Shown in pieces: positions 2,766 through 34,672 of a stretch of 47,723 nucleotides of DNA; within the stretch, counting starts at the first letter, position 1; each line of letters starts with the position of its first letter. The position numbers were made by a program, and so were the translations under genes. The notes beneath the pieces were generated by a model that saw only the letters and a list, made by a program, of their open reading frames with translations, was not told the DNA's origin and searched no databases. Source of the DNA: a virus. The stretch is from positions 1 to 47,723 of IMG/VR virus record IMGVR_UViG_3300036985_003617, one strand, 5' to 3'.

Positions 2766-3622
2766 GGGTTGGATCCCGGCTCTCCAACCATCGCGTCGAC
2801 CACCGCCTTCTCCTTGTCGAGAGCCGTCGACAGCACTTCGAGGTTGGCGATCGACAGGTCGCTGATGCGTCCTTGCGGCAAGTTGTTCGCAGCCATCAAG
2901 GCGAACACGTTGTCGCGGGTCAGGCCGAGAGCCTTGGCCTTGGCTGCGCAGTCCTTCGCCATGGTTTCGATCTTGATTGCGGTCTCGTCGACCGCCGCGC
3001 CGACGATGGCGGCAACCTTCTCGCTTGCGGTGCCTGTTGGCGGCAGCGAGGGCAAGCCCGACATCTCGGCATCCTTGATGATCTCGTCCATCTCCGAGGT
3101 CTCGTAGCAGCCGAACATCACTTCGGCGGCGAACTTTCGCCCTGCGCTTGTCACTGCGCGAGCGGTCAACATCGTCTCGGGATACTTGCGCCAGTTGTCC
3201 TTGCCGTTCCACAGCCCGGCGGTCATCGCGCGCTGCTTGTCCCATGGCTCTTCGTGAGACTCACCCTCTGGGTTAACCAGGCGGCACACCACCTTCTCGG
3301 GTCCGCTCACCGGGAACGACACCTTGTAGCCAGCAGATCGCAACCGAGCGACCCAGAAGTGGTAGCTAGCGACGACGTGGCCTTCAACGATGTGGAAGGC
3401 GCGGAAGCTCGCCATCGGACTGATGCCAAGCTCTTGACCCGCCATGATCGTCGCGAGGATCATCCCAGGGTTGCCAAGGCAGTTCTTCGGAATCATGCCG
3501 GAGGCGTTCTTGACCATCTCCGCGAACTGCATCGCCTCCGCGATTGTAGCGAAGTCGGTGAGCATCTTGCGCGGCTGCAAGGCGCGGACGGGAGACGAGA
3601 CGGTTTCTGGTAGCTGGCTCAT
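2762..3622 (-). CDS. RecT-like single-strand annealing protein
   Basis: This encodes 286 residues from the ATG at 3622, whose ATGA overlaps the exonuclease stop. RecT-type features: an N-terminal helical segment with MIPKNCLGNPGMILATIMAG and ELGISPMASFRAFHIVEG (the typical ...G..P....a....i..G region), and WRKYPETMLTARAVTSAG followed by RKFAAEVMFGCYETSE, the ..p..m...ra.t...r..fpe...g.y...E pattern of phage RecT proteins. A helical tail follows. It is expected to bind ssDNA and anneal strands generated by the adjacent YqaJ nuclease. Assignment is by motif pattern and by the nuclease-annealase gene pair. Confidence 0.82.
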   Translation of the reverse strand: MSQLPETVSSPVRALQPRKMLTDFATIAEAMQFAEMVKNASGMIPKNCLGNPGMILATIMAGQELGISPMASFRAFHIVEGHVVASYHFWVARLRSAGYKVSFPVSGPEKVVCRLVNPEGESHEEPWDKQRAMTAGLWNGKDNWRKYPETMLTARAVTSAGRKFAAEVMFGCYETSEMDEIIKDAEMSGLPSLPPTGTASEKVAAIVGAAVDETAIKIETMAKDCAAKAKALGLTRDNVFALMAANNLPQGRISDLSIANLEVLSTALDKEKAVVDAMVGEPGSNP

Positions 3623-4545
3623 GGATTCTTGTCCTTCCACGCCTTGGTGACGTGCATCTGGCGAAAACTGGCTGGTGCGACGGTGTAGCCAGCGCGGGCA
3701 ATGGTTTTGAGGGTGACCACGGGCTTGCCCTCCTCGTCGACGACGATCTCGTTCGCGCCGATAGCTTCGTGCAGCGCGAAGTCGTGTGCTTCGACTTGTG
3801 CCTCAAGCTCCTTGATGGCCTTTTTCACTTCGGCGCGCATCAGCAACCGCCCGACGATCTCTGCCGTCAACGGCGTCGTCTGGCCCTTCGCACTCCACAC
3901 GAGGCGGCGAGCATCGGCGAGGTCCACAGGCTTCGGAGGGGTCTCGCCGAGCACGTGCTGCTGCCAGAACTCATCCACCTTGTCGCGGATCGTCTTCGCC
4001 AGAGTTGGGCTGTAAGCGACCGACAGCACGCGGAGGCCGATGGCTTCCACGATCTCGGCTGGCGTCAGCCCCATCAGGTCGCGCATGCCGGTGCTGTGCG
4101 GCCACACGAGCACAGGGTAGTCGGCCTGATCCACCTCGTGCATGTCCATATACCACGTCCCTTGGCAGTCGTAGTAGAGAGGCACGGTGTCAGTACCGCT
4201 CTCGCCCCACTCGCTGCCCATCGTTGTCGCCTTGGCTTCAACGATGCGCTTCCAGCCACCAACCTCGGCCATCGCATCAACGTTGGCGCGACGGTAGCCC
4301 TTGCGCAGCGTCTCAAGCGACCACACCTTGGAGCCCTCGGGCAGCGTCTTGGCGTAGGCCGCGATGACCGGGGCCTCAAACCGCTTGCCCGCGCGCATCG
4401 CTGGTGTCTCTTGCTTGTCATCTTGCTTGAGTACCTTCGAGCGCCAGACGTCAAGAGGGGTCGAGAACGGGGACAGCCCCATGATCGCAGCGACTTCGCT
4501 GCCGCCGATTCCGCTGAATCGGTCTTCGGTTGTGGTGGTGGTCAT
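3619..4545 (-). CDS. YqaJ-family phage exonuclease
   Basis: This encodes 308 residues from the ATG at 4545 (MTTTTTEDRFSGIGGSEVAA). YqaJ/PD-(D/E)xK nuclease features: IGGSEVAAIMG with LDVW, a conserved FEAPVIAAYAK segment, then the catalytic set ANVDAMAE (D90) and IVEAKA (E103-x-K105), followed by YYDCQGTWYM, the conserved Q-containing helix. It probably acts as a 5'-3' dsDNA exonuclease that feeds the RecT-like protein encoded next. The frame is open much further upstream, but that extension overlaps the region downstream of the gene at 4814 and lacks protein-like sequence, so the short start is preferred. Confidence 0.87.
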   Translation of the reverse strand: MTTTTTEDRFSGIGGSEVAAIMGLSPFSTPLDVWRSKVLKQDDKQETPAMRAGKRFEAPVIAAYAKTLPEGSKVWSLETLRKGYRRANVDAMAEVGGWKRIVEAKATTMGSEWGESGTDTVPLYYDCQGTWYMDMHEVDQADYPVLVWPHSTGMRDLMGLTPAEIVEAIGLRVLSVAYSPTLAKTIRDKVDEFWQQHVLGETPPKPVDLADARRLVWSAKGQTTPLTAEIVGRLLMRAEVKKAIKELEAQVEAHDFALHEAIGANEIVVDEEGKPVVTLKTIARAGYTVAPASFRQMHVTKAWKDKNP

Positions 4546-4681
4546 GGTGAGTAAGAGTGCCGTCTCTCCGGCTGTCACGTCCGCCGTAACCAGAAGGCTT
4601 AGGCGTTGTCCGCCCCGACGTTGGGCGGTTCCGATGGATTGGGGGCTCGGGTACTGGCCGAGACCAACCCATGATGGTCGG

Positions 4682-4816
4682 CTATTGTGGCTCGCTCCAG
4701 GCTGGTTCAGTGGTTCCGTGCGCTTCCTTGATGTAGCCTCGGATGTGGTCGTCGATACCGAGTCGAAGGGCTTCGTCGTAGGTGGCGAACTCGCCACCGT
4801 CACCGGAGCATTGTCA
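4682..4816 (-). other. In-frame continuation after the TGA at 4814
   Basis: Translating past the TGA in the same frame gives 43 residues without a stop, with ordinary amino-acid composition (ATYDEALRLGIDDHIRGYIK) and no start codon of its own near the TGA. It is best explained as the C-terminal part of the 4814-5059 gene rather than as a separate gene. The remaining 136 bases to the exonuclease start hold nothing else I recognise. Confidence 0.6.
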
Positions 4817-5059
4817 ACCGTGCCCGGTGTAGTCCTCACTCTCGATCGCGGTCCCGTAGTTGCCGTTCTTCAACTTGACGATGCACGCGCTGCTGTCTTC
4901 CGTCGCCCATTCTGTGCTGCTTGTCCACGCGACGCAGACGCGGTCGATGTCAGCCGTCTGCCACGGAACGGTTGCGTGATCCGAGCACAACATGGCTTGC
5001 CTCCATGTCTCTTCGGCCCACATGAACGCCTGCACTTGGGTCTCGGCGAGGTAGCTCAT
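4814..5059 (-). CDS. Hypothetical protein ending at an in-frame TGA (possibly interrupted)
   Basis: This encodes 81 residues from the ATG at 5059, which overlaps the upstream stop as ATGA. It ends ...IESEDYTGHG-TGA. The same frame continues for 43 protein-like codons to a TAG at 4682-4684 (QCSGDGGEF ATYDEALRLGID...). I recall, unverified, phage proteins with an uninterrupted DYTGHGCQC-type stretch, which would place a cysteine at the TGA. A TGC-to-TGA change, a sequencing error or stop readthrough are all possible. Function is unknown. Confidence 0.65.
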   Translation of the reverse strand: MSYLAETQVQAFMWAEETWRQAMLCSDHATVPWQTADIDRVCVAWTSSTEWATEDSSACIVKLKNGNYGTAIESEDYTGHG

Positions 5060-8903: not shown

Positions 8904-8969
8904 TTGACGGTCAAGCGTGGATGTTGACCTCCGCTTACGCCAGCTTACAGTAAGCAACCAATGGCTTAC
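8904..8969 (+). promoter_or_regulatory. Operator/promoter region of the replication initiator gene
   Basis: It contains the palindrome TTGACGGTCAA (8904-8914), a TTGACC -35-like box (8924-8929) and TACAGT (8946-8951) 16 bases on. A perfect 13-base palindrome GCTTACAGTAAGC (8943-8955) overlaps that -10. Further GCTTAC copies lie at 8933-8938 and 8964-8969, the last inside the coding start. GTAAGC is also the repeat unit of the iteron array inside the gene, so the initiator may bind and repress here. Confidence 0.55.
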
Positions 8970-9812
8970 GGCAAAACTTTCGAGTCACTCTACACCGGAT
9001 CGATGGTCGGAGCGGGGCTCAACGTCTTCGGGGTCTGGAACTACTGCATCGCCTCCGCGAAGCCGCCGGGGTTCGTCGAGTTGAACCCGATCATCATGGC
9101 CACGATCTTCGGCTGTCCCGTCCAGGACGTCGAGGATGCGATCGTCAAGCTCTGCGAGCCCGATCCGCGCAGTCGATCTAAGGAGTGTGATGGACGCAGG
9201 TTAGTCAAGGAAGGTGAGTTCCTGTACTCGATCCCGACATGGGCGAAGTACAACGGAATCAAGAACGAAATCGAGCGGAGAGAGCAGAACCGGGAGGCTC
9301 AAAAGACGTGGCGGAATCGTCAGCGCGGCGTAAGCAATAGTAAGCAAGCGTCAGCAGGCGTAAGCAACATAAGCCGCGTAAGCGGAGTACCTTCTACATC
9401 TACATCTACATCTACATCTACGTCTCCGTACTCTGGAGAGGGGATGCAAGGGGAGATCCCGCCTTCCAAGCCTCCCGAGTTACCGCCGGACTTCTTGGAG
9501 TTCTGGGACGCCTACGGCAAGAAGGGCTCGCGCCGGGAATCGCTGGCCAGTTGGACCAAGCTCAAGCCGAATCCTGAACTAGCCGCCGAGGTCATCGCCG
9601 CCGCAAAGAAGTACCGGGCCGCTCATACTGACGATCCCCAATTCCAGAAGGACGGGCAACGGTGGCTCAAAAACGAGGGCTGGAATGACGAGATCGTGCC
9701 CCGCAAGGACGATACCAAGCGCACCGGCATCTGGGCGCAAGACTACTCCCCCGAAAACTACGCCACCAAAGGCCAGATCGACGAGTACGGCTTTCCCGTG
9801 AGTAACCCATGA
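8961..9812 (+). CDS. Phage replication initiator, lambda O-like in organisation
   Basis: This encodes 283 residues. The N-terminal 110 residues (MAYGKTFESLYTGSMVGAG; VWNYCIASA; LNPIIMATIFGCP VQDVEDAIVKL; EGEFLYSIPTWAKY) have the winged-helix pattern of phage replication and DnaD-like initiators. A linker rich in Ser/Thr (VSNSKQASAGVSNISRVSGV then alternating STSTSTSTST) is followed by a C-terminal domain with FLEFWDAYGKKGSRRESLAS and FQKDGQRWLKNEGW, a pattern common in phage initiators that contact the helicase loader. The linker DNA carries a phased iteron array. The DnaC-like gene follows with a four-base overlap, matching the O-P arrangement. Confidence 0.78.
   Translation: MAYGKTFESLYTGSMVGAGLNVFGVWNYCIASAKPPGFVELNPIIMATIFGCPVQDVEDAIVKLCEPDPRSRSKECDGRRLVKEGEFLYSIPTWAKYNGIKNEIERREQNREAQKTWRNRQRGVSNSKQASAGVSNISRVSGVPSTSTSTSTSTSPYSGEGMQGEIPPSKPPELPPDFLEFWDAYGKKGSRRESLASWTKLKPNPELAAEVIAAAKKYRAAHTDDPQFQKDGQRWLKNEGWNDEIVPRKDDTKRTGIWAQDYSPENYATKGQIDEYGFPVSNP
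9330..9422 (+). other. Putative replication origin (iterons plus hexamer array) inside the initiator gene
   Basis: Six GTAAGC-type units start at 9330, 9340, 9350 (GTCAGC), 9360, 9369 (ATAAGC) and 9378, that is, every 9-10 bases or about one helical turn. Directly after them come five tandem hexamers TCTACA (last one TCTACG) at 9393-9422, much less GC-rich than the surroundings and a plausible unwinding element. This matches the lambda design of origin iterons in the middle of gene O followed by an AT-richer stretch. Confidence 0.6.
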
Positions 9813-10642
9813 ACGAACCCATCGAAGCGATTCTCAGGCAGCACGTCATCACCGACCGCCGAGAGGGCACCTGTGCAGACCACGGGGCTTTCGAGCAAGT
9901 CCAGTGGTCGATGCAGCCAGCGTCCCACGCCCCCATGTGCAAGCCGTTCTGGAGCAAGTGCCCGACTTGCGACGCGGCGATCCAAGCCGAGCAGGACAAG
10001 ACCAACCCGGCCAAGTCCCAGGAGGCACGGGATCGCGCCCACGCCAACCGCATGCGCGACTGCAACATCCCCGAACGCTTTCACAAGTCCACCGTGTGGA
10101 ACTGGCAGCACGGCATCCCGCAGCAAGGGCACGTCTGGCACTGGGCTAGCGACTACTGCAACGCCTTCGCTCTCGCCATCGAGAGCGGTCGGTCAGCAGC
10201 CTTCTTCGGTGCCCCAGGAACTGGCAAAACACACCTGGCATGCGGGATGCTGGCTCACATCTCCGAGAAGGGCGGGACCGCGTGGTACACGACCGTCATG
10301 GATGCACTCTCGCGAATCAAGGACACCTACCACCGCAGCTCTGCCGAGACGGAGGCTCAGGTCGTCAACCAGCTATCCACCGTCGACCTGCTCGTGATCG
10401 ACGAGGTAGGGCGCACCCTCGACACCAACTACGAGAGCGCGCAGTTTTTCCGCCTGATGGACATTCGCTACCGGCACCTCAAGCCGACCATCCTCATCAG
10501 CAACCTCAACCGCGAGAAGTTGTGTGCCTACCTGACGGAGCCAGTTGTGGACCGGATACGCGAAGCGGGTGGCGCGTTGCTGTCGTTCGATTGGGCGAGC
10601 CAGCGCCGAACCAGGCGGGCCGATCCCGAGGGGGACTCGTGA
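9809..10642 (+). CDS. DnaC-like AAA+ helicase loader
   Basis: This encodes 277 residues. An N-terminal Cys-rich region (CADHG...CKPFWSKCPTCDAAI) suggests a zinc knuckle. The AAA+ core has Walker A GAPGTGKT (residues 134-141) and Walker B LLVIDEVG with D198-E199, followed by TILISNLNREKL (sensor I-type Asn) and VVDRIREAGGALLSFDW, typical of DnaC/IstB-family ATPases. It is expected to load the host replicative helicase at the origin together with the upstream initiator. No phage helicase or polymerase is recognised in the window, consistent with use of the host replisome. Confidence 0.88.
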   Translation: MNEPIEAILRQHVITDRREGTCADHGAFEQVQWSMQPASHAPMCKPFWSKCPTCDAAIQAEQDKTNPAKSQEARDRAHANRMRDCNIPERFHKSTVWNWQHGIPQQGHVWHWASDYCNAFALAIESGRSAAFFGAPGTGKTHLACGMLAHISEKGGTAWYTTVMDALSRIKDTYHRSSAETEAQVVNQLSTVDLLVIDEVGRTLDTNYESAQFFRLMDIRYRHLKPTILISNLNREKLCAYLTEPVVDRIREAGGALLSFDWASQRRTRRADPEGDS

Positions 10643-21367: not shown

Positions 21368-21714
21368 TCTGGAAGCCATCTTGCAATGCGTGTGGTCTAG
21401 TGACTGCTGGGTTCATCTTGGCGGCAGCCAGCCTGCGCTACAGCGTCTACGCGGGCGAACGCGCCAACGAAATGCAGAAGCGCGGGCTTGACAGGCAGAA
21501 GGCAGCGCAACAGACCGCGCAAGACGCCGCGATCCGGCAGCAGAAGCTGAGCGCCGAGGCATACGCCAAGGCCAACGCCAAGACGCCAGACATCGGCTCG
21601 ATCCTCGCCGCCGAGCAAGAACTGAGCAAGACCGGGGCCGCCTCAACGCAGTTGACGACGCCAGGTCCGAAGAAGAAGCCGGTCGGCCAGACCACAACCC
21701 TGCTAGGTGAGTAA
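21364..21714 (+). CDS. Small virion-associated protein with N-terminal membrane span
   Basis: This encodes 116 residues from the ATG at 21364. The hydrophobic stretch LVTAGFILAAASLRYSVYAG is followed by a long polar helix rich in Ala/Gln/Lys (RQKAAQQTAQDAAIRQQKLS) and a Pro/Lys/Thr tail. Similar small proteins precede the portal gene in related podophages as I recall. A structural or membrane-insertion role is inferred. Confidence 0.6.
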   Translation: MIWKPSCNACGLVTAGFILAAASLRYSVYAGERANEMQKRGLDRQKAAQQTAQDAAIRQQKLSAEAYAKANAKTPDIGSILAAEQELSKTGAASTQLTTPGPKKKPVGQTTTLLGE

Positions 21715-23396
21715 TGGTGAAGTCCTGGCGCGACATGAACGAGCGCGAGCAGATGATGCGCCGCCTCAACGGGCTCAAGAACGAGCGCGCACCTTTCACG
21801 CCGGTCTACCAAGCTCTGAGTCAGCAGCTTGCGCCAGCCAACGGGCGGTTCTTCGGCGAGACACCAAACCGCAACGTCCGCGACTACAGCCACATTGTTG
21901 ACGCCACCGGCATCGAGGCCATCGAGACCAGCGTCGCCGGGCTGATGTCGATTGCATCGAATCCGTCGCAGCCGTGGATCGCCTACACCACGCGCGACCC
22001 GGAACTCGACGACTACCAGCCGGTCCAAGCCTGGATGGCGGACGCAGCGGCCATCACGCTTGACGTGTTCGCGAACAACAACACCTACACGGTGTTGCCA
22101 CACTACTACCGCGAGCTGCTTTCGTTCGCGACAAGTAGCGGACTGTTGTTGCCGCACTTCAACAAGGTGGTGTGCCACTACCCGATGACGTGCGGCGAGT
22201 ACTACCTCCAGCAGAACGCCGAAGGCGAGATCAACACGTTCTGCCGCGAATACCACATGACCGTCGCGCAGATGGTCAAGCGGTTCAAGTTCGAGAACTG
22301 CTCGCAGGTTGTCCAGTCGCAGTTCAAAAACGGCGATCTCGACTTCCACCACCACATCGCACACTTGATCGAGCCGCGTGAGGATCGCGAGCACGGCAAG
22401 ATGGACGGCAGGAACAAGCCGTGGCGATCGGTGTACTGGGAGATGAACCACGACAACGAGAAGCTTCTCGATGACACAGGGTTCGATGAGTTCCCGGTGC
22501 TGGCGGCGCGGTGGGACACGGTTGGCGGCGACACCTACGGGACCGGGCCGGGCAACCGCGCGCTGCCGCACGCTCAACGATTGCAGATCATGGTCAAGCG
22601 CCTGGCGCGAGGCATCCATCAGCAGATGGACCCGGCGACGCTGTGGCCCGCCTCGATGAAGAACCGCGAGGTGGACACGAACCCCGGCGGTCGTAGCTTC
22701 GGCGACATCGGCAACCAGCAGGGCGGCGCGCGCGCACTGCACGATACTCGCCCGCAGCTTGACCACATGCTGTCGCACCTCCAGGACATCCGCAACCAGG
22801 TCAAGGAAGCGTTCTACTCGAACTTCTTCGCCAAGGTCACGAACGACCAGCGCAACGAGCGAGCGACAGCCACCGAGATCAACGCCATCAAGCAAGAGGC
22901 GTGGCTGATGCTCGGCCCGTTCGCGCAACGCATTTTCAGCGAACTGCTCTCGCCGATGGTGCAGATCACGTTCACGCAACTGCTCAAGAACGGTGCCTTC
23001 CCGCAACCGCCGCCTGAACTCTACGGTCGCGAGATCAGCGTCAAGATGGTGTCGGTGCTCGCTCGCGCGCAGGAAGCCGTTGGTGCCGCCGCCGACGAGC
23101 GCTTGACGTTCCAGATGAGCCAGATCGCGGCTTGGTCGCCAGACGTCGTCTACTCGTTCAACTCGAACAAGTGGGCCGAGCGGTATGCCAAGAAGATCGG
23201 CGCTGACCCCGACCTGGTCGTGCCGAGCGAAGAGGTTGCGAAGATCCTCCAGGCTCGTGACCAAGCGCAGTCCGCGCAGGCACAGACAGAGATGATGGAG
23301 AGCCAGAGCAAGACCGTGAAGAACCTCGCTGGTGCGCCGACTGGCGGCGAAACCGCGCTGACCGACGTTAACCAAGCCGCCGCCGCAGGAGCCTGA
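21714..23396 (+). CDS. Portal (head-to-tail connecting) protein
   Basis: This encodes 560 residues. N-terminal LNGLKNERAPFTPVYQALSQ, VDATGIEAIETSVAGLMS and PSQPWIAYT are the hallmark of the T7/BPP-1-type head-tail connector family, and ATATEINAIKQEAWLMLGPF then AQRIFSELLSPMVQ is its conserved C-terminal clip/barrel region. It forms the dodecameric portal at the capsid vertex. Length fits the family. The ATG at 21714 overlaps the preceding stop. Confidence 0.93.
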   Translation: MVKSWRDMNEREQMMRRLNGLKNERAPFTPVYQALSQQLAPANGRFFGETPNRNVRDYSHIVDATGIEAIETSVAGLMSIASNPSQPWIAYTTRDPELDDYQPVQAWMADAAAITLDVFANNNTYTVLPHYYRELLSFATSSGLLLPHFNKVVCHYPMTCGEYYLQQNAEGEINTFCREYHMTVAQMVKRFKFENCSQVVQSQFKNGDLDFHHHIAHLIEPREDREHGKMDGRNKPWRSVYWEMNHDNEKLLDDTGFDEFPVLAARWDTVGGDTYGTGPGNRALPHAQRLQIMVKRLARGIHQQMDPATLWPASMKNREVDTNPGGRSFGDIGNQQGGARALHDTRPQLDHMLSHLQDIRNQVKEAFYSNFFAKVTNDQRNERATATEINAIKQEAWLMLGPFAQRIFSELLSPMVQITFTQLLKNGAFPQPPPELYGREISVKMVSVLARAQEAVGAAADERLTFQMSQIAAWSPDVVYSFNSNKWAERYAKKIGADPDLVVPSEEVAKILQARDQAQSAQAQTEMMESQSKTVKNLAGAPTGGETALTDVNQAAAAGA

Positions 23397-23502: not shown

Positions 23503-24255
23503 ATGACCTCGCGACAGAAACCGCGCGACCCTTACGATGGTGGCTCTCCAGACAAGCTGGAAGAGGCCCTGCGGCCAGACATCGTGCTGGAGTATGAGCT
23601 ACGTCGGCTGATCCAGGCAGTAGACACCACCTCGACTCCTGGTGCCGATGGGCCTCCAGGAGAGCCGGGCGAGCCTGGCCAGGATGGGCCGCCAGGACAA
23701 CCTGGCAACGATGGGGCACCAGGGCCAGCAGGAACCGGAACTCAGGGGCCTGCGGGCATCCAAGGGCCTCCAGGAGAGGACGGGGCCGATGGTGCCCAAG
23801 GACCGACTGGAAGCATGGGTGCGCAAGGTGTGACGGGCACCGCAGGATTGATCGCCCAGGTTCAAGACGAGGGCGTGGCCATCACGGATCGCCCGGTTCT
23901 CAATTTCGTTGGGGCAGGAGTCACGGCCACCGATAGTGGGTCCAGCATTCTCGTCACGATTCCTGGAGGCGGTGGATCAGCCACCGCGTTCCTGAACCAA
24001 AACCTTGGATCGCAAGCCGCACAGTCTGGCTCGTTCACGTTCACCATCGCGAGCAGCGCAATCGGCTCTCTCATCGAGATGTTTGAGACGGCCGAGACGT
24101 TGGCCAGCGGCGAGACAGCCGACCGCCTGGAATGCGACTCAATCCGCGCGACGGGCATCGTCACGGCGGCCACGACTGGCACTGCATACTGGAATGCGAT
24201 GCCGGGCTATGCTGCCGGGACCAAGCGGTTCGCCTACAGAATCACAGCAATCTGA
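23503..24255 (+). CDS. Collagen-like fibre protein
   Basis: This encodes 250 residues. After a charged helical start ([20 protein letters not shown]) residues about 46-120 are Gly-X-Y triplets ([20 protein letters not shown] and onward) that should form a triple helix. The C-terminal 130 residues contain [20 protein letters not shown], a phage fibre motif, and a beta-rich head (ending [16 protein letters not shown]). It is probably a trimeric fibre or capsid-decoration spike. The gene order places it near the portal rather than with a distal tail-fibre block. Confidence 0.8.
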
Positions 24256-24258
24256 ACC

Positions 24259-24921
24259 ATGACTTTCCTTCAAGACGGAATCGCGACCAGCACGCTGCAA
24301 GGCGTCAACGCAACGCACAAGGCAGCGCGTGTTGCGCTCTACCCGAACGAAGCGTTGGGGCACTACCGGATGGTCGCAACCTCCGGCCTACTCACCACGA
24401 TCGCCGCAGGCTCTGCGACGGCCGGTCACCTCTTCGTAGTTCGGGCACCATCAACCAATGTGATGGTCGTCACGAGACTTGTTGCGAAATGGCGCACGGT
24501 AGTGGGGTTCACTGCGGCTCAAGAAGTCGCAATGAAGGTATTCCGCCTGACCGGCTTCACCGTCAACTACTCGGGCGGCACCGACATCATTCTGACCACC
24601 CCCCAGTTCAAGAAGCGAACGTCGTACGCAAGCACGACGATCCAGCAGGCGCGCATAGGTGGGGCTGGTGCTCTGACCGCTGGCACGCAAACGCTCGACA
24701 CCAACGAACTCGCGTCGGAGTCGACGTGGGAGCTGGCAGTCGGCGCTACCGTGCCCAAGACGCGGTTTGACATGGCGTGCAATTCGAGCTCGGCAGGCGA
24801 CCATGCGATCGTGCTGACCGGCAACGAGGGTCTTATCGTGCGCAACGAGATTCTGATGGGGGCCGCTGGGACCGGACGCCTCATTGTCGAGATGGATTGG
24901 TTCGAGACCGCTACCTACTGA
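24259..24921 (+). CDS. Putative virion structural protein
   Basis: This encodes 220 residues, beta-rich, with LGHYRMVATSGLLTTIAAGS, ATAGHLFVVRAPSTNVMVVT and GRLIVEMDWFETATY. Related sequences occur in phage structural clusters as I recall. Adjacent to the collagen-like gene it may be part of the same fibre or a surface decoration. No catalytic motif is seen. Confidence 0.6.
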   Translation: MTFLQDGIATSTLQGVNATHKAARVALYPNEALGHYRMVATSGLLTTIAAGSATAGHLFVVRAPSTNVMVVTRLVAKWRTVVGFTAAQEVAMKVFRLTGFTVNYSGGTDIILTTPQFKKRTSYASTTIQQARIGGAGALTAGTQTLDTNELASESTWELAVGATVPKTRFDMACNSSSAGDHAIVLTGNEGLIVRNEILMGAAGTGRLIVEMDWFETATY

Positions 24922-24928
24922 GAGACCT

Positions 24929-25315
24929 ATGGCACAAAACAAGACAATGAAGTTCGGTCCAATCGCGCTGACCGCGACGCTCACGACCAACATCCTCAAC
25001 GGTGGTGCCGCTGGGGCGGGAGCTGTCGGAATCACTGTTAGTGCTCCCTACCTGCTGCTGAAGCGCATCCGCATCACCAACAAGGATTCGACGGCTAGGA
25101 CGTTCTCGTTGTACCTTGGCGCAACAGGTGCCAACGCGCCCGGCACCGAGTTCATCGGTGCTGCACTCAGCATCGCGGCCAACTCGGCCTACGACTGGAC
25201 ATCAGCCTCGGGGGTGCGGATGGAGTTGACGGACTTCCTGGTCGGCGGTGCCAGCGCGCTCACCACCCTGACGATCCAAGGCGAGCTTGAGATCGGGATT
25301 TCACATGGCACTTAG
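24929..25315 (+). CDS. Putative virion structural protein
   Basis: This encodes 128 residues from the ATG at 24929. It is beta-rich with APYLLLKRIRITNKDSTART then FSLYLGATGANAPGTEFIGA, resembling small jelly-roll-like phage decoration proteins. The frame is open upstream into the previous gene, but the ATG follows a normal spacing. Confidence 0.6.
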   Translation: MAQNKTMKFGPIALTATLTTNILNGGAAGAGAVGITVSAPYLLLKRIRITNKDSTARTFSLYLGATGANAPGTEFIGAALSIAANSAYDWTSASGVRMELTDFLVGGASALTTLTIQGELEIGISHGT

Positions 25316-26624: not shown

Positions 26625-27680
26625 ATGGCAGTTCTCACGTCCACCATGCCGAACATCGCCGACTTGATGAAGTCGCTCGATCCTGACCACAAGTTGGCCA
26701 AGGCGGCAAACCTGATGACGCAAGCGAATCAGCTTGTGCCAATGCTTCCCGTCGTCGAGGCGAACAACATCACGCATCACCGCGTGAACCAGGTTGTCGC
26801 TCTCGGTGCGGCCAGCGAACGCGGCCTGAACCAAGGCACGCAAGCCACCAAGAACGAGAAGGCGCAGCACGATGAGGGCATCGCGCTCGTCGACAAGTGG
26901 AACATCTGCGACAAGAAGGTCGCCGAGCTTTCGGGCGACGTGGCTGCGTTCCGTGGCCAGGAGACTCGCCTCGGCACGGTCGCTGTCTCGCAGCGCGTTT
27001 CGTTCCTCACCGTCCTTGGCAACAAGGCGACGAACGACCTGCAATTCACGGGCCTCTTGCCTCGCTACAACTCGCTGGCTGACACGAGCGTCGCACAACA
27101 AATTGTTGACTGCGGCGGCTTGGTTGCGGCGACCGGCGCTCTCACGTCGATGTGGCTCGTTCGCGCTGGCGTCGACTCGGTCTTCCTGACCTATCCGAAG
27201 GGTAGCAAGGGCGGCTTGTTTCACCACGACTACGGCTTGGTAGCTGAGTCGAGCGCGTCCAACTCCAGTGGCACCCTGACGGCGGGCTACCACATGGCCC
27301 AGTACAAGGACCAGATCGGCTGGGACGTCGGTCTCGTGGTCAAGGACCAACGCTGTGTCGTGCGGCTGGGCAACATCAACCCTGCTCACTTCACCTTGCT
27401 GACGAGCACGCAAGCGCCAGCCACCTTCGAGAACATCGTCCACAAGATGATGATCGCGCACGGCAGGCTGCCGCTCGACGTCATGGGCGACGACTTCTAC
27501 GTCTGCAACCGCGTGGTTCGCACCGGCCTGATGCGCCTCGCCTACGAGAAGTCGACGCCAGGCCTCGGTCTCCGCGAGGGTCTGACCCAACTCGGCAAGC
27601 CGACGACCATCCTGTCTTTCTGGGATGTCCCCATCCTTCTGGAAGACCAGATCACCAGCACCGAAACCTTCATCCCGTGA
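26625..27680 (+). CDS. Major capsid protein, BPP-1-like HK97 fold
   Basis: This encodes 351 residues. NIADLMKSLDPDHKLAKAAN, ANQLVPMLPVVEANNITHHR, and FTGLLPRYNSL correspond to the conserved N-arm, spine and A-domain segments of the capsid family found in BPP-1-like podophages (D..lv......n..l..m.w.e......h......gLP...). The C-terminal GKPTTILSFWDVPILLEDQI is the typical P-loop/end strand. No protease gene is seen next to it; this family does not need N-terminal delta-domain cleavage. Confidence 0.9.
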   Translation: MAVLTSTMPNIADLMKSLDPDHKLAKAANLMTQANQLVPMLPVVEANNITHHRVNQVVALGAASERGLNQGTQATKNEKAQHDEGIALVDKWNICDKKVAELSGDVAAFRGQETRLGTVAVSQRVSFLTVLGNKATNDLQFTGLLPRYNSLADTSVAQQIVDCGGLVAATGALTSMWLVRAGVDSVFLTYPKGSKGGLFHHDYGLVAESSASNSSGTLTAGYHMAQYKDQIGWDVGLVVKDQRCVVRLGNINPAHFTLLTSTQAPATFENIVHKMMIAHGRLPLDVMGDDFYVCNRVVRTGLMRLAYEKSTPGLGLREGLTQLGKPTTILSFWDVPILLEDQITSTETFIP

Positions 27681-27690
27681 GGAACAACCC

Positions 27691-28428
27691 ATGAACGACA
27701 TCAACCTCAGACTCTGCGGCACGGGCCAAGCGGTTACCGATACGGTCCCTGGAGCTGTGTCGTCCGCGTGGCTCGACCTTGACAGCCTCGGCGCAGGCAA
27801 CAACCGGCTTCTCGGAGGTGGGCAAATCGTGGTCGCGAGGTTCGCGTGCCAGGTGGCGGCCAATCCGGCGGCCGATCCTGACAACACGGTCGAGTTTTCG
27901 ATCGTGCTGACACCCATCACGCTAGCGACCCCGACAACGGCCCGCACCGTGCCGACGCCAACCTTCACCAACGGCACCGACGTGGTCAACTCGACTGCGC
28001 ACGGGCTGCCCAACGGCACGTTGGTCAAGATCACGGCGACCGGCGGCAGCCCCACTGGCCTTGCCGCCGATACCCATTACTGGGTCATCAATGCGACGGC
28101 CAACACGTTCCAACTGGCCGCGACGCCGGGCGGTGTCGCTGTGCTGTTCACGAACGACGGCACCCCCGCCCACACCATCACGTGGTACCCGACGCCGCTC
28201 GTGTCCAGCGGCGCGATCCCGACGCAGAAGATTGTGGTCGGGTCGGTGTGCGAACTGGTGATCCCGCCGGGGTTCAGGCCGCCGACCAACAACGTGATCC
28301 ATCGCTATCTTTATGCGATGTTCTCGGGGCCGACCGACATCACGGCAGGCACCTTCACATGCGATCTCACGAGCGGGTTCTCCATGGAAGGGAAGCCATT
28401 CAACAAGGTCAACTACGTCACGGCCTAG
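27691..28428 (+). CDS. Cement/decoration protein with inserted FCCH-like module
   Basis: This encodes 245 residues. The outer parts (LRLCGTGQAVTDTVPGAVSS; CELVIPPGFRPPTNNVIHRY, TDITAGTFTCDLTSG) fit the Bbp16-like cement family that follows BPP-1 capsid genes. Residues about 91-168 are an extra beta module (DVVNSTAHGLPNGTLVKITA ... DTHYWVINATANTFQLAATP) of a type that recurs in the next two large genes. The paralogous gene directly downstream lacks this insert. Confidence 0.72.
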   Translation: MNDINLRLCGTGQAVTDTVPGAVSSAWLDLDSLGAGNNRLLGGGQIVVARFACQVAANPAADPDNTVEFSIVLTPITLATPTTARTVPTPTFTNGTDVVNSTAHGLPNGTLVKITATGGSPTGLAADTHYWVINATANTFQLAATPGGVAVLFTNDGTPAHTITWYPTPLVSSGAIPTQKIVVGSVCELVIPPGFRPPTNNVIHRYLYAMFSGPTDITAGTFTCDLTSGFSMEGKPFNKVNYVTA

Positions 28429-28452: not shown

Positions 28453-28971
28453 ATGAGAGACGCATTCACTACAGTAGACAGAGAGCGCGCGGCGGCGGAC
28501 ATCAACTCAGCCCTCGGCGTGGTGTCGTCGAAGGCATATCTGGTTTCCGCAACAGCAGGCGTTCCGAGGGATCTCGGTGATGGCAATCCGCTGATGATGA
28601 CGCTCAGGGTCGACACAGCGTTCGTTGGAGATGCAACGCTTCAATGGGGCATCATCGCCTCGAATGTGGAAGCTCTCTCTGGCGGCGGATCAGAGATCAT
28701 TCTGGCGATGAGCGCATCCATCCCAGGTCTTCCAGGCTCCTTCGGTCACTTGGATGCCGCGCACCTGACCGCAGGCGCTGACTTCAAGTTGTACATCCCG
28801 CCGTTCCCCAAGACGTGGATTCTTGCGGCGTGTGGGCTCCAGTACCTGGGCGCGATCTACCTGATGACAAGCGGCACGTCGTTCACGGCGGGAACGTTCA
28901 CCACTTCGATCTCGCACGCCAGCACTTCGTCGATGCCTCGATCGCATGTGATTGGCTACCGAGGCCCGTAA
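28453..28971 (+). CDS. Bbp16-like cement/decoration protein paralog
   Basis: This encodes 172 residues. KAYLVSATAGVPRDLGDGNP, LMMTLRVDTAF, LYIPPFPKTWILAACGLQYL and FTAGTFTTSISHAS follow the Bbp16-like pattern (short beta strands around a G..Y.....aG-T segment). It is a tandem paralog of the 27691-28428 protein. It likely stabilises capsid contacts. Confidence 0.7.
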   Translation: MRDAFTTVDRERAAADINSALGVVSSKAYLVSATAGVPRDLGDGNPLMMTLRVDTAFVGDATLQWGIIASNVEALSGGGSEIILAMSASIPGLPGSFGHLDAAHLTAGADFKLYIPPFPKTWILAACGLQYLGAIYLMTSGTSFTAGTFTTSISHASTSSMPRSHVIGYRGP

Positions 28972-29021: not shown

Positions 29022-31382
29022 ATGGCTGAGACTCCCGTCATTATCTCGATCGGGTCCAGCAACATGGCTGGGTTCGGGGCGGCGCTGAACGACGTTTCGC
29101 TGGCAGACGGCGCGCGCTGGTTTGGCTACGCGCCGTCGCAGTTGCTGACCTATCCGCGCACAGCGTCGATGGCTGGCGTCCGCATCTGGACGCCTCGTCT
29201 GCCCTACGCGACGGTCGAGACTTACACGATCACGGCGGTGCCGACGACGAGCCAGGTCACGGTTTCTGTCTACACCTTCGTGGCTGGCGACGAAGGAAGA
29301 TGGGTCTTCGTGTCGTCCAACGCCACGGGCCAAGGCAACGTGCGGCGCATCACGTCTGCGGGAGGCTCTGCCACCGCAACGGTCAACGCTGTCTGGGCAT
29401 CGACTTTGACGGCTGCCGGGTCGCTCACAATCATTCGCGACTCGCATACGGTGCTGTCGGTCGACTCAACGTCAACCGTCATCAGGAAGACTGGAACCAC
29501 GCCAGCCCTCAACTTCGGTGGGGCGGACTTAACCGGCAAGTTCGTGGTGTTCTTCGCCTCATACGGAAGCTCTGGCAGCGCGATCTTCTCGCAGTCACGG
29601 AAGATCACCTCGCACACCGCAGAGACTATGACCCTGGAGTATGCGCTCGGATTGCCCGGCGCAACGCTGGCACCCTTCGACAACACAGATAATGTGGCCG
29701 GTGCCACCATCACGTCGGTGGCTCATGGTCTGTCCAACGGCACGCGCATCACAGTCGCGGCGGCATCTGGCATCCTCAATACGGGCGTCGGCTACGCCGC
29801 TGGCACGGATCTCTACATCATCAACAAGATGAACGACACCTTCGAGGTTTCGGCGACGTTTGGTGGCGCCGCCATCGTGCTGACCGACCAGCTTGGGACG
29901 ACCACGGTGACGTGGTACGCGCTTGGTTACAGCGGATTCGTCATCCTCACCGGCACGGGAGCCAACCAGTCGCTCGCCACGCAAGCAACCGGCGCTGCGC
30001 TGCGCACGCTCGCGGTCCACATGGACACAGCCCCGGTCTACCTGACCGGCTACGACTACAACAACTGGGACGCGACGCCATTCGGCTCGCCGCTGGCGGC
30101 GCTCGGCACCTTTGGCACGCGGGCGGTGACGACGTTCCCGCCTGCTGTCGCCAACACCAACCCGACAATCAACAGCGTTCCCGAGCTTGCATGGCAGTTC
30201 CGCTCGCGGTTCGACACGCCGATCGTGATGCTGGAGCTGGGGATCTCGTCTTCGATGATCTCGCCGCTCATCATCGATGCATTGGTTGGGTCCAACTACA
30301 CCGGCTGGGCGCACGACATCACGCAGCTCGACTTCCATCCGAGTTCTGACAACGGGCTCTACGAAGCGTTGGTGATGCGGATCGATTCGCTGCGCACGCT
30401 GATCGAAGCGGAAGGCAACACCATGTCGGTGAAGGCCATCTGCATCAACCTGTTCGACAACGACGCAGCCGACCCTCGCTACCTGCGCATTGGCGCGAAC
30501 GCGGTGCTGCTGCGCGATGCACTGCGCACCTACATCGGCGACCAGACCATCCCGTGGATCATGGCGGGGCCGAGCGTCTACGGCGGTGCCCTCCAGCCCG
30601 CCATCTATGCGCAGCTTGCGCAGGTTGAGTTTGAAGACCCTTACTCGGCCTACTTCGACACGCGCCTCACCTACGGGCTGCACACGGACGGCGTCCACTA
30701 CTCGGCAGCGGGCCAGATCCAACTCGGACGCGACTTCTTCACCGCGTGGCTGCGCATTGCCGACCAGGCCGACAACTCGGCGGTCAGCACCGACGTCGAC
30801 ATCTGCAATATCGCGTTGTCGAACATCGGCGACAGCGCCAAGGTCACCGCGCTCGACGGCACCGACACCTCGGCGCAAGCGCGGCACTGCATCCGCTACT
30901 ACCCGGTCGCGGTGCGCGAGATGCTGGAGATGCACTCGTGGGACTTCGCCACGCTCCGCATCGAGCTTGTCGAGGTGACGAACACGCGCGAGGACGAGTG
31001 GACCTACGCCTATGCCGCACCGACCGGCATGGTGGGCGCTATAGCGGTCCTGGCGGCAGGATCGTCAAGGGACGCCCCGCCACAGCCATACATCATCGAA
31101 ACGGACGCTGGGGGCACGCTGGTGCTCTACACGGACGTCGAAGGTGCGGTCATTCGCTACAACCGCAACGCCAAGAACCCTTGCATGTTCAGTGCGCTGT
31201 TCGTTGACGCGCTGGGGTGGCTTCTCGCGTCGAAGTTGGCAGGCCCGATCATCAAGGGCGATCAGGGCAAGAAGGAGGCGAAGGACTGCCTCTCGATGAT
31301 GCAGCAAGTCCTTGGTCGCGCATCGACCCACGACAGCAACCAACGCAAGGTCGAACCGGAAACAGACGCCCCCTGGATCTAA
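29022..31382 (+). CDS. Fusion: SGNH/sialate-esterase-like hydrolase plus head-tail adaptor (T7 gp11-like)
   Basis: This encodes 786 residues. The N-terminal part begins ETPVIISIGSSNMAGFG, a variant of the GQSNM.G block with putative nucleophile Ser13. LHTDGVHYSAAGQIQLG near residue 553 gives the D556-x-x-H559 dyad of SGNH esterases. An FCCH-like beta module sits at about residues 222-302. From residue 591 the sequence becomes DVDICNIALSNIGDSAKVTA, ARHCIRYYPVAVREMLEMHS, WDFATLRIEL, the hallmark of T7 gp11-type adaptor (tail tubular A) proteins. No frameshift or stop separates the parts. Expected location: the ring between portal and nozzle, with an enzyme attached. A decapping or deacetylating role on surface glycans is inferred. 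Confidence 0.82.
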   Translation: MAETPVIISIGSSNMAGFGAALNDVSLADGARWFGYAPSQLLTYPRTASMAGVRIWTPRLPYATVETYTITAVPTTSQVTVSVYTFVAGDEGRWVFVSSNATGQGNVRRITSAGGSATATVNAVWASTLTAAGSLTIIRDSHTVLSVDSTSTVIRKTGTTPALNFGGADLTGKFVVFFASYGSSGSAIFSQSRKITSHTAETMTLEYALGLPGATLAPFDNTDNVAGATITSVAHGLSNGTRITVAAASGILNTGVGYAAGTDLYIINKMNDTFEVSATFGGAAIVLTDQLGTTTVTWYALGYSGFVILTGTGANQSLATQATGAALRTLAVHMDTAPVYLTGYDYNNWDATPFGSPLAALGTFGTRAVTTFPPAVANTNPTINSVPELAWQFRSRFDTPIVMLELGISSSMISPLIIDALVGSNYTGWAHDITQLDFHPSSDNGLYEALVMRIDSLRTLIEAEGNTMSVKAICINLFDNDAADPRYLRIGANAVLLRDALRTYIGDQTIPWIMAGPSVYGGALQPAIYAQLAQVEFEDPYSAYFDTRLTYGLHTDGVHYSAAGQIQLGRDFFTAWLRIADQADNSAVSTDVDICNIALSNIGDSAKVTALDGTDTSAQARHCIRYYPVAVREMLEMHSWDFATLRIELVEVTNTREDEWTYAYAAPTGMVGAIAVLAAGSSRDAPPQPYIIETDAGGTLVLYTDVEGAVIRYNRNAKNPCMFSALFVDALGWLLASKLAGPIIKGDQGKKEAKDCLSMMQQVLGRASTHDSNQRKVEPETDAPWI

Positions 31383-31384
31383 GC

Positions 31385-34300
31385 ATGAACCTGCGCACCA
31401 TTCAGCGGAGCTTTGCGGGCGGCGAGATGTCGCCATCGATGTTCGCAAGGGTGGACGACGTTCGGTTCCAGAACGGCTACGCCCAGGCGCGCAACTTTGA
31501 GGTGCTGCCGAATGGCAGTCTGCGTCGCCGACCAGGTCTGCGGCACATCCGCCGTTGCAAGTACAACGACAAGCGTGCGCGAGTGATCCCGTTCACGCAC
31601 TCAATCAACGACACGTTGCAGATCGAGATGGGTCACCAGTACTTCCGCTTCCATCAAAACGGCGGGACGGTGCTCTACGCGACGCCCTACGTCGTGGCCT
31701 CGGTTGATGTCGCTGGGAACACAATCAAGTTCACTGCGGCGCACGGGTTGGCAACAGGGACGTCGGTGCAGTTCACGTCAAGCACTCGCGTGGCGGCCGA
31801 TCTGCCAGACCCGCTAGCACCTCAGACGGTCTACACCATCACCGTCATCGACGCGAAGTCGATCCGTGTCAACACGGTGACGCTCCTCCCCGATACAGGG
31901 GCCGGGACGATCTACATGTGGCTTGACAGCGCCATGCCGATCGACTGGTTCTCGCTGCGCAACTTTGTTGACGCCGCAATCGACCTATCGGACGACCGGA
32001 TCAGTCTGGCATCGCCGCACGGGTTCGTCACTGGCGATGCCATCAGGTTCGTGACAACCGGGACTCTTCCGACTTCGACACCAGCGTTCACTCCATCGAC
32101 GACATACTACGTAATCTTTTTCGATGTAAATCAGATCCAGGTGGCGACAACGCTTGCGAATGCGCTGGCTGGCACTCGGATTGATATGACCGTGCTGAAC
32201 GGCGGCGCCCACACGATCTATCGCCTCTATTCGGTCGGCGATCTCGTCTTCTCCAGCATTGGAGGCCACGGAGTCTTCTACTGCATCGCAGACGTGGCCG
32301 ACAGCACGGTGCCCAGCAGTGACGTGGCACACTGGCACATGTTGCCGGTTGACGGCCCCTACGAGATTCCACACCCCTACATCGAGTCAAACCTGGGGGC
32401 GGTTGGTTACGATCAGAGCAACGACATCATCTATCTGGCGCACGACGACCACTTGACTGCCGAGCTTCGGCGCGAGGGAGCGTTGCGGTGGATCTACGCA
32501 GCGGTGACGTTTGCGCCGCAGTTGGCTCCGCCAACCATTGGGACGGTGACGGAGACATACGGCACGTACATGACGTTTGACGCGGCCATCGGCGACCTCG
32601 CGAATCCTTCGATCTTTACAGCCGTAAGCTCGGTAAGCAACGGTCACGGCTTGCAGGTTGGAGACAGCGTCTACGTCGAAAACACCTCTGGAACGATCGG
32701 TGGCGGTGTCGCCTTCCCCGCTGTTGCGGCTGCACTTTACCCTGCTGGATACTACGAGGTGATGAGGGTTGAGCCTGGAACGCCGCCGTTCACTAAGATT
32801 CGCCTCAAGACGGTCAATGGCGGCGACGTGATCTTTTCGGATATCATCTACTCGGTCTACATCCGATACGCCTCGGTGCTGACCGACACGACGCAGACCT
32901 ACAAGGTGACAGCCGTCACTGAGGATGGGCTTGAGTCCCAGCCGTCTGGCACCGCGATCGCCGTCAACAACCTGAGCGTCGCCGGGTCATCCAACCTGGT
33001 GTCGTGGTCGGCGGTGACGGGTGCGGCAGGCTACTACGTCTACAAGCTGCGCGGTGCGACCTACGGGTTCATCGGCCGGAGTGACACAGGTGTGCTCACC
33101 TTCAAGGACGACAACATCGCACCAGACCTTGGGCGCTCGCTGGCGACACTGGACACGTCGCTCAACGCGGGATCTGGGAACTCGCCAGCAGCGGTGGCCA
33201 GCTTCGAGCAACGGCGGTTCTTCGCTGGCACCGACAACTCGCCGAACGGCGTGTGGGCAACACGCAGCGGGACCGAAACGGACCTGAGCTACCACATCCC
33301 GGTTCTGGACGACGACCGGCTCAAGTTCGAGATCGCCAGCCGGGAAGCGGTCGCGATCCGCCATCTCGTGCCGATGCAGCAGTTGCTCGTGCTGACGAAC
33401 TCCACCGAGTTCCGCATCGTGCCGGTCAACAGCGAGTCCTTGACGCCCAGCAGCATCGACGCCAAGGTCCAGAGCTACCAAGGCTGCTCGGTTGTGCGTC
33501 CAGTGGTGGTGAGCAACAACCTGGTGTTCTGCGCTGCTCGCGGTGGCCACGTCTTCGAGATGGGGTATCAACCGCAGGGTGGTGGGCTCTCGACGCCAGG
33601 CGACGTCTGCCTGCGCGCCGAGCACCTCTTCGACGGCCACACCATCGAGGACCAAGCGCATTCAAAGGCCCCGCACCAGATCGTCTGGTTCTGCTCGCCG
33701 TCCAGCAGTCTTCTTCTGGGTCTCACCTATGTGCCACAGGAGCAGATCGGCGCATGGCACGCCCACGACACGGCGGCCGGTGGCGTCTTCGAGTCGTGCA
33801 GCGTTGCCGCCGAGGGTGTCGAGGACGTTCGCTACTACGTCGTCAAGCGCACAATCAACGGCTCCACGGTGCGCTCGATCGAGGTGATGTCCACCGAGGC
33901 GGTCGCCAGCCTGACCAGCGCCTACTTCGTGGATGCGGGCGGCAGCTTCAACGGCACCTACGTCGGCTCCACCAACGACATCACCGTGACCGGCGGCACG
34001 ACATGGACCTACGGCAACTCGGTGACGATCACCGCAGATGAGGTCACGTTCGTGTTGGGGTCTGATGACGTTGGCGACCAGATCGTGCTGACCAGCGCGG
34101 GCGTGACCTACCGAATCCGCATCACCGCCGTGTCCACCAACAAGATTGCCACCGGGACGCTACTTGCCACCCTGCCGACCGCCCTTCGCAGCGCCCCCAC
34201 AACGGCCTGGGCGTTCGCCAGAGACGCGATCGGCGGCCTAGACCATCTGGAGGGCCAGACGGTTCAGATCCTCGGGGACGGGCTCGTGCAGGCCACTAAG

Positions 34301-34672
34301 GTGGTCGCAAGCGGTGCCATCACTCTCGCCACGCCAGCCGTCGCTGGCTGCGTCGGCCTTGGCATGCCCTCGTATGTCAGGTTGCTGCCGATCGGGCTCC
34401 CGAACGTCGAGGCATGGGGCCAGGGTCGCACCAAGAACGTGAACCAGGCGGCCATCCGCGTCGTCAGATCGGGAGAGTTCTTGATCGGGCCGAACGACAC
34501 ATCCTTGGCACCGGCCAACACCGAGGCGGTCGCGGGCTCGCTTGTCACTGGCGAAGCGCGCGTTACGTTGCCTCCTGATTGGACATCTGACGGCCAAATC
34601 GTGATGAGGATTGAAGACCCGCTACCGATGACCATCCTGGGAACGATCCTCCAGGTCTCCTTAGGGGACTAA
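31385..34672 (+). CDS. Large tail nozzle protein (T7 gp12-position) with beta modules and Fn3-like domain
   Basis: This encodes 1095 residues from the ATG at 31385. The N-terminus LRTIQRSFAGGEMSPSMFAR then FEVLPNGSLRRRPGLRHI is the start of BPP-1-type nozzle proteins. FCCH-like modules follow (about residues 106-180, 199-281 and 412-485). SQPSGTAIAVNN...LVSWSAVTGAAGYYVYKLRG is Fn3-like (about 515-575). A conserved core follows with FAGTDNSPNGVWATRSGTET and LLVLTNSTEFRIVPVNSESL. It lies directly after the adaptor gene, as in T7. An open frame further upstream overlaps the adaptor gene and is rejected. Confidence 0.82.
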   Translation: MNLRTIQRSFAGGEMSPSMFARVDDVRFQNGYAQARNFEVLPNGSLRRRPGLRHIRRCKYNDKRARVIPFTHSINDTLQIEMGHQYFRFHQNGGTVLYATPYVVASVDVAGNTIKFTAAHGLATGTSVQFTSSTRVAADLPDPLAPQTVYTITVIDAKSIRVNTVTLLPDTGAGTIYMWLDSAMPIDWFSLRNFVDAAIDLSDDRISLASPHGFVTGDAIRFVTTGTLPTSTPAFTPSTTYYVIFFDVNQIQVATTLANALAGTRIDMTVLNGGAHTIYRLYSVGDLVFSSIGGHGVFYCIADVADSTVPSSDVAHWHMLPVDGPYEIPHPYIESNLGAVGYDQSNDIIYLAHDDHLTAELRREGALRWIYAAVTFAPQLAPPTIGTVTETYGTYMTFDAAIGDLANPSIFTAVSSVSNGHGLQVGDSVYVENTSGTIGGGVAFPAVAAALYPAGYYEVMRVEPGTPPFTKIRLKTVNGGDVIFSDIIYSVYIRYASVLTDTTQTYKVTAVTEDGLESQPSGTAIAVNNLSVAGSSNLVSWSAVTGAAGYYVYKLRGATYGFIGRSDTGVLTFKDDNIAPDLGRSLATLDTSLNAGSGNSPAAVASFEQRRFFAGTDNSPNGVWATRSGTETDLSYHIPVLDDDRLKFEIASREAVAIRHLVPMQQLLVLTNSTEFRIVPVNSESLTPSSIDAKVQSYQGCSVVRPVVVSNNLVFCAARGGHVFEMGYQPQGGGLSTPGDVCLRAEHLFDGHTIEDQAHSKAPHQIVWFCSPSSSLLLGLTYVPQEQIGAWHAHDTAAGGVFESCSVAAEGVEDVRYYVVKRTINGSTVRSIEVMSTEAVASLTSAYFVDAGGSFNGTYVGSTNDITVTGGTTWTYGNSVTITADEVTFVLGSDDVGDQIVLTSAGVTYRIRITAVSTNKIATGTLLATLPTALRSAPTTAWAFARDAIGGLDHLEGQTVQILGDGLVQATKVVASGAITLATPAVAGCVGLGMPSYVRLLPIGLPNVEAWGQGRTKNVNQAAIRVVRSGEFLIGPNDTSLAPANTEAVAGSLVTGEARVTLPPDWTSDGQIVMRIEDPLPMTILGTILQVSLGD

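Follow-up and report, generated by a model that had tools for sequence, protein, structure and literature searches.

A single gene at 29022-31382 of the window (the whole stretch of 47,723 nucleotides that was analysed, an uncultured virus record of 47.7 kb with 63% GC) joins a hydrolase of the SGNH type to the head-tail adaptor of a podovirus. The fusion within one gene, the folds of both halves, the invariant Ser, Asp and His residues concerned and the inheritance of the fused proteins within one clade are all observed. We consider it probable that the product is a head-tail adaptor that bears an N-terminal SASA-type SGNH esterase, and that this enzyme would act as a collar at the neck of the virion to deacetylate the polysaccharide of the host.

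Genomic context

From about 18.3 kb onwards the + strand carries a morphogenesis cassette that is colinear with that of Bordetella phage BPP-1 and encodes, in order, the portal, the scaffold/protease, the capsid, decoration, adaptor and nozzle proteins, an internal virion protein, an endolysin-like protein and a giant internal protein. Judged by this cassette, the virus is a BPP-1-like podovirus. The genes that matter here are the following, where L159 denotes the closest relative and L096 a more distant one.

21714..23396, + strand, portal protein (Pfam Head-tail_con, 3.1e-131; Bbp21 homologue)
26625..27680, + strand, major capsid protein (Pfam GP7, 4.9e-57; Bbp17 homologue)
27691..28428, + strand, cement/decoration protein at the Bbp16 position, with an AHGL module at 27973-28191 (gene order as in BPP-1; counterpart in L159)
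28453..28971, + strand, second small protein at a decoration position, directly upstream of the fusion gene (Bbp16-like ORF of L096, 9e-5; match in L159)
29022..31382, + strand, SASA/SGNH hydrolase-adaptor fusion gene, 786 aa (open frame; phrog_394; SASA; Foldseek)
31385..34672, + strand, nozzle protein, 1095 aa (phrog_376, 4.1e-156; homologue of BPP-1 Bbp13; two AHGL modules)

The reading frame of the cement protein opens at 27625, but the ATG at 27691, which lies past the capsid gene, more likely marks its start. The interval between portal and scaffold (23503-25315) contains a gene for a fibre-like protein with collagen repeats (Pfam Collagen, 1.8e-10), a candidate fibre gene at 23503-24255, together with two small ORFs. 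At the same interval L096 and another relative, L099, carry fibre-like genes with DUF5907 repeats, and L096 also encodes a Kelch protein. The early region of the window encodes an RNA-ligase-like protein (387-1265, - strand), a RecE-like exonuclease (3619-4839, - strand) and a replication initiator with a DnaC-like helicase loader (8961-10642, + strand). Among the genomes compared, Limnohabitans phage DC33 (L006, PQ492659.1) is filed under the Inoviridae, although in gene content it is a BPP-1-like podovirus.

The fusion gene and its junction

The first-pass annotation had described one uninterrupted gene of 786 codons, and this is what is found: the frame runs from ATG to TAA with neither an internal stop nor a frameshift, and the GC content at third codon positions is high over the entire ORF, as for a single coding gene. 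In the protein, residues 1 to about 585 form a SASA-type (PF03629) SGNH hydrolase, and the adaptor follows at about 588-786. In the alignment the free BPP-1-like adaptors begin with MASEVDIC where the 786-residue protein reads STDVDIC. Since the free adaptors start exactly at the junction, some 588 residues have been added ahead of a complete adaptor. An internal start at this point was considered and rejected: the 70 codons that precede the junction contain no start codon, and the nearest ones are Met514 and a TTG at codon 599, the latter inside the adaptor.

The record is a single metagenomic contig, and in a relative that is 63% identical (L097:10001-13810) the fusion gene is broken up over several reading frames, for which sequencing errors in the contig are the probable cause. 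One could therefore suppose that an error of assembly or annotation has joined two adjacent genes. However, L159 and three further lineages carry the fusion on many independent contigs, intact and with the same junction. This confirms that it is a real single gene, and leaves the artefact with a negligible probability.

The adaptor domain

The presence of a complete T7 gp11-like adaptor domain, as annotated initially, is well established. Residues 589-786 match phrog_394 with an E-value of 1.5e-39 over profile positions 2-185 of 190, i.e. over the full length of the family, and PDB entry 8ck1_E with 3.9e-12; they are 42-48% identical to most of the free BPP-1-like adaptors. The AlphaFold2 model of this half shows helices at 591-637, strands at 644-715 and helices at 725-775, and a helix bundle, a beta fibre dock and a C-terminal helix can be recognized in it on basis of the model and Foldseek. 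The latter paired it with the connector 8ck1 (TMt 0.79), with T7 gp11 (0.55-0.56) and with the adaptor structures 9efk, 8vb4, P-SCSP1u and KP32 TTPA. The genomic position is also that of the Bbp14/T7 gp11 family (phrog_394), between the cement proteins and the nozzle, the ATG of which follows two bases after the stop codon of the fusion gene. Thus, residues from about 588 to 786 are a complete adaptor of the T7 gp11/BPP-1 Bbp14 type. Members of this family are free-standing proteins of about 200-230 aa in nearly all loci examined, whereas the protein described here adds about 588 residues.

The hydrolase domain

The features within the fusion gene are listed below.

29052..29063, + strand, SGNH block I, GSSN, with the putative nucleophile Ser13 at 29058-29060 (invariance; model)
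29124..30173, + strand, beta-rich insert between block I and the remainder of the core, residues about 35-384 (pLDDT below 50)
29688..29933, + strand, AHGL/FCCH-like module inside the insert, residues 223-304 (common to the cement protein and nozzles)
30174..30776, + strand, C-terminal part of the SGNH core, residues 385-585 (profile of relatives; alpha/beta order)
30453..30464, + strand, equivalent of SGNH block III, FDND, residues 478-481 (alignment to relatives; D481 invariant)
30687..30698, + strand, SGNH block V, Asp556-Gly-Val-His559 (the Asp and the His do not vary among six fused proteins)
30783..31379, + strand, T7 gp11/Bbp14-type adaptor domain, residues 588-786 (phrog_394, 1.5e-39; fold; identity to free adaptors)

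The match of the protein to Pfam SASA (PF03629) covers residues 469-576 and scores 18.6 bits (E=0.0015), which is below the curated cut-off of 24.8 bits. Fused relatives exceed this cut-off, with 48.3, 37.9 and 44.4 bits (1.3e-12, 1.9e-9 and 2e-11, respectively). Moreover, a profile made from four of these relatives, which covered the C-terminal SASA region only and from which the 786-residue protein had been left out, recovered that protein with 36.6 bits (E=2e-10), against 6.7 bits for the best of 999 shuffles.

The putative catalytic residues that had been assigned at first sight, Ser13 in GSSN and D556/H559 in DGVHY, are indeed conserved: in an alignment of six fused proteins, where the others share 29-41% identity with the 786-residue protein, G11, S13, N14, D481, D556 and H559 are invariant. 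For block II, a glycine (Gly407) is present in the equivalent loop, and in some relatives it is offset by one or two positions. Block III, which reads GxND in SGNH hydrolases with the Asn as oxyanion residue, varies among the fused proteins. The SASA motif QGExD is present in L096, L099, L101 and L113, and the fused relatives other than L159 read QGE(E/N)D, whereas the block is FDND in the protein described here and SEND in L159. Both retain the Asn-Asp pair (N480 and D481) and have lost the glycine of this block. As a consequence, the contribution to the oxyanion hole may be lost, and catalysis may be altered in the branch formed by this virus and L159.

An AlphaFold2 model of the full protein (alignment of 27 rows) has a mean pLDDT of 59. 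The adaptor is modelled with confidence, and so are most of residues 1-12 and 440-585, with pLDDT mostly at 70-93 beyond residue 440. Residues 1-26 and 383-587 together show the beta/alpha order of an SGNH core: a strand (3-12) is followed by a helix (13-26) with Ser13 at the nucleophile elbow, and D556 and H559 lie in the loop that precedes the last hydrolase helix. This topology is compatible with an SGNH triad of Ser13, Asp556 and His559. Foldseek paired this half with acetylesterases of the SASA/CE families (2apj, 7kmm, 1zmb, EstL5 and NanS), so that structure prediction and fold search agree with the SGNH fold that the first-pass annotation had put forward. The more specific call of a sialate-type esterase stands as far as a SASA-like SGNH hydrolase of the acetylxylan/sialate type is concerned, but the domain is not demonstrably sialate-specific. 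Similarly, the N-terminal part does contain the proposed hydrolase core, but it is not hydrolase throughout, as it also holds the large insert modelled below a pLDDT of 50. On the strength of the relatives above all, and of the model, residues 1 to about 585 are taken as a SASA-like SGNH hydrolase with a beta-rich insert, and as a predicted enzyme. It shares the order of the SGNH core and the GxSN and DxxH blocks with the SASA esterases 1zmb and 2apj and the acetylesterase 7kmm, and it differs from them in the absence of the QG of QGExD. In addition, the fused proteins as a group differ by some 300 to 1000 residues that follow block I and by the C-terminal adaptor.

The altered block III also brings up the reading in which the SGNH domain has ceased to function as an enzyme and is retained on the adaptor as a collar that binds glycans or has a purely structural role. 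Loss of QGExD in this protein and in L159 fits such a role, as do the sub-threshold SASA score of the former and the lack of any Pfam SASA match for the latter, and there is a precedent in phage DEV, where no LPS hydrolase activity was detected in virions that carry an esterase-like domain on a fibre (PMC10925440). Nevertheless, Ser13, Asp556 and His559 have remained invariant over a deep divergence, during which decay should have removed at least some of them, and Asn-Asp is kept at block III even in the branch of this virus. We therefore regard a dead enzyme as unlikely, though it is the strongest of the alternatives, and retain an active esterase as the preferred reading.

The insert and the AHGL module

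The insert behind block I amounts to about 300 residues in the protein described here and to as many as about 1000 in relatives, and it differs in content as well as in length among the fused proteins. Its AHGL module of some 80 residues recurs within the same virion. The cement protein shares it (4e-12; 27973-28191), and the nozzle has two copies (31706-31876 and 31997-32221); in fact, the module is widespread in the nozzles of BPP-1-like phages. It is absent from the fusion protein of the close relative L159. In this distribution it behaves like a module that moves between virion proteins. A model based on 22 sequences (mean pLDDT 67) gave no significant match in the PDB. In Nostoc phage Nsp-JY18, a protein at the position of the nozzle carries the annotation FCCH domain protein.

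Relatives and descent of the fusion

With the 786-residue protein alone as query nothing was found in the viral and genome collections, and relatives came to light only via alignments of the adaptor, the portal and the family. A scan of IMG/VR with the adaptor alignment yielded 80 loci, four of which (representing two distinct types) encode adaptors with more than 1000 additional N-terminal residues that match Pfam SASA above its cut-off (1.3e-12 and 1.9e-9). Near-copies, L101 and a further fused lineage (L112-L114) came from later scans, and the scan based on the portal revealed L159, with a fusion protein of 720 aa that is 41% identical to the one described here and is intact, with the same junction, on a different contig. 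Thus, the search for further adaptors with N-terminal extensions, which had been suggested at the outset, was rewarded: besides L159 it brought to light no fewer than three lineages of uncultured phages that are more divergent.

Such extensions are otherwise rare. Out of the 154 adaptor ORFs collected, 122 are extended by fewer than 30 residues at the N-terminus and the remainder consists mostly of near-copies of the fusions; nearly all other BPP-1-like adaptors that were found stand alone. In the cultured-phage collection no fused adaptor was present among the phages searched, and the N-terminal domain had no relative there apart from a short match to the AHGL module that was not significant. 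A search for the prokaryotic host gave no match in genome contigs. Among viral structure models, the BFVD protein A0A516LTA4 aligns to our model over 450 columns (E=1.8e-29), as would be expected of a fused homologue, and two viral-model proteins in all align over 450-575 columns, which suggests that fused homologues have already been deposited there.

Between this virus and L159 the identity decreases from 73% for the portal to 52% for the adaptor half and 37.5% for the hydrolase half. The front half thus evolves fast, as host-facing proteins do. In the adaptor tree all fused proteins form one clade with a support of 96/84 (95/81 when L159 is added), which is consistent with a single fusion event followed by turnover of the insert. 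An independent origin of the fusion in this virus is not supported by this tree, in which the branches are long.

The more distant fused relatives have a methionine at the junction, in RMG(T/S)SEVDIC, which is likely a relic of the old start of the adaptor; it is absent from this virus and from L159. The persistence of this residue would fit a scenario in which the fusion is a polyprotein or a device to set stoichiometry, with the halves parted by proteolysis or internal translation and the free esterase acting elsewhere, for instance in lysis or release. A weak GAGG precedes the junction Met in L079, and these phages encode a protein of a protease family (phrog_458) at the scaffold position. 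Yet the Met is missing from the junction in this virus and L159, the relatives other than L079 have no ribosome-binding sequence at the junction, and in the model the last hydrolase helix (562-587) nearly abuts the first helix of the adaptor (591-601), with little linker in between. A separation of the halves is therefore improbable, and we proceed with the reading of a permanently joined esterase and adaptor.

A putative esterase collar at the neck

The adaptors of T7 and P-SCSP1u assemble below the portal into a ring of twelve, which provides a dock for the fibres (PMC6702177, PMC10575957). By analogy with these phages and with DEV, we infer that twelve copies of the fusion protein make up the ring. 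The adaptor half would then form the ring between portal and nozzle, and the esterase half and the beta-rich insert would hang outside as a collar. In T7 the channel of the adaptor is 40 angstroms wide (PMC6702177, PMC10575957) and the tail complex 175 angstroms. Hundreds of extra residues per subunit exceed such a channel, so that by this analogy the additional bulk should lie outside the ring, where the width of the T7 tail complex leaves about 46 angstroms of circumference for each of twelve subunits, i.e. room for one SGNH domain each. The collar would strip O-acetyl or similar ester groups from the surface polysaccharide of the host, and this deacetylation would let the short tail and its fibres reach the receptor.

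Deacetylation without cleavage of the chain may abolish receptors as well as expose them, as is the case for receptor-destroying esterases. The esterase could accordingly serve receptor destruction, against re-adsorption of the phage itself or on lysis debris, instead of entry. The virus appears to have a separate collagen-like fibre, and for that reason the esterase need not act in adsorption. On the other hand, virion SGNH esterases that have been studied, such as G7C gp63.1, are required for infection (PMC13123978), and our data fit entry as well as exit. We consider receptor destruction very improbable, somewhat more so than a separation of the halves, and keep to a collar that assists entry.

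SGNH esterases as such are common on phage fibres and have been confirmed biochemically for G7C gp63.1 and fibres of Klebsiella prophages (PMC13123978). These are likewise virion deacetylases for surface glycans, but they are separate receptor-binding proteins, whereas here the predicted enzyme is part of the neck ring. Thus, what is unusual is the location and not the presence of such an esterase on a virion. That location had been noted as unusual from the start, which holds, with the qualification that parallels exist. In Schitovirus DEV the esterase-like domain is carried by the gp53 fibre, which forms a collar around the adaptor ring, and the adaptor gp83 has a lectin-like insertion (PMC10925440); the difference is that the domain sits on a separate fibre protein in DEV and on the adaptor itself in the virus described here. 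For KP32 TTPA (5mu4), an adaptor of the T7 type, hydrolysis of saccharides has been reported (PMC5440376, PMC5741709), an activity that is claimed for the adaptor fold itself, without an added enzyme domain. The neck-passage structure proteins of lactococcal phages swap carbohydrate-binding or pectin-lyase-like domains (PMC10684548), but are collar proteins unrelated to the adaptor ring. Finally, VP2p14 of the cultured Vibrio phage VP2 (L156:3989-6214) is an adaptor of 741 aa that is enlarged by fused domains like the protein described here, except that the additions are C-terminal Ig domains and include no hydrolase; it is annotated only as tail tubular protein. In the open-access literature we found no description of an esterase fused to the adaptor of a podovirus.

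In a sister group (L144:3590-6612 and L163:2576-5606, and also L162) the adaptor has an N-terminal extension of about 130 residues, and a gene for a galactose-oxidase-like protein of about 677 aa lies just upstream of it. The assignment rests on GO-like_E_set (9e-9) in L144, and L163 is alike by eye. This arrangement is possibly a second way of placing an enzyme at the neck. More generally, the N-terminus of the podovirus adaptor might be an evolvable site for the display of enzymes, used here for an active esterase as a fixed neck collar and in the sister group for an extended adaptor with the galactose-oxidase-like protein upstream, which would set neck enzymes apart from those of fibres and spikes. 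We offer this as a tentative idea that has rather less than an even chance of being right.

Implications

The search for glycan-active enzymes of phages is usually directed at tail fibres and spikes, and an esterase that is fused to an essential protein of the neck would for that reason be overlooked when receptor-binding proteins are looked for. If the esterase is active, a structural ring protein would double as a surface-modifying enzyme, the copy number of which would equal that of the ring and which could not be shed. Moreover, it is disputed whether adaptors (tail tubular protein A) contribute to the attack on polysaccharides, and the fusion allows this idea to be tested cleanly.
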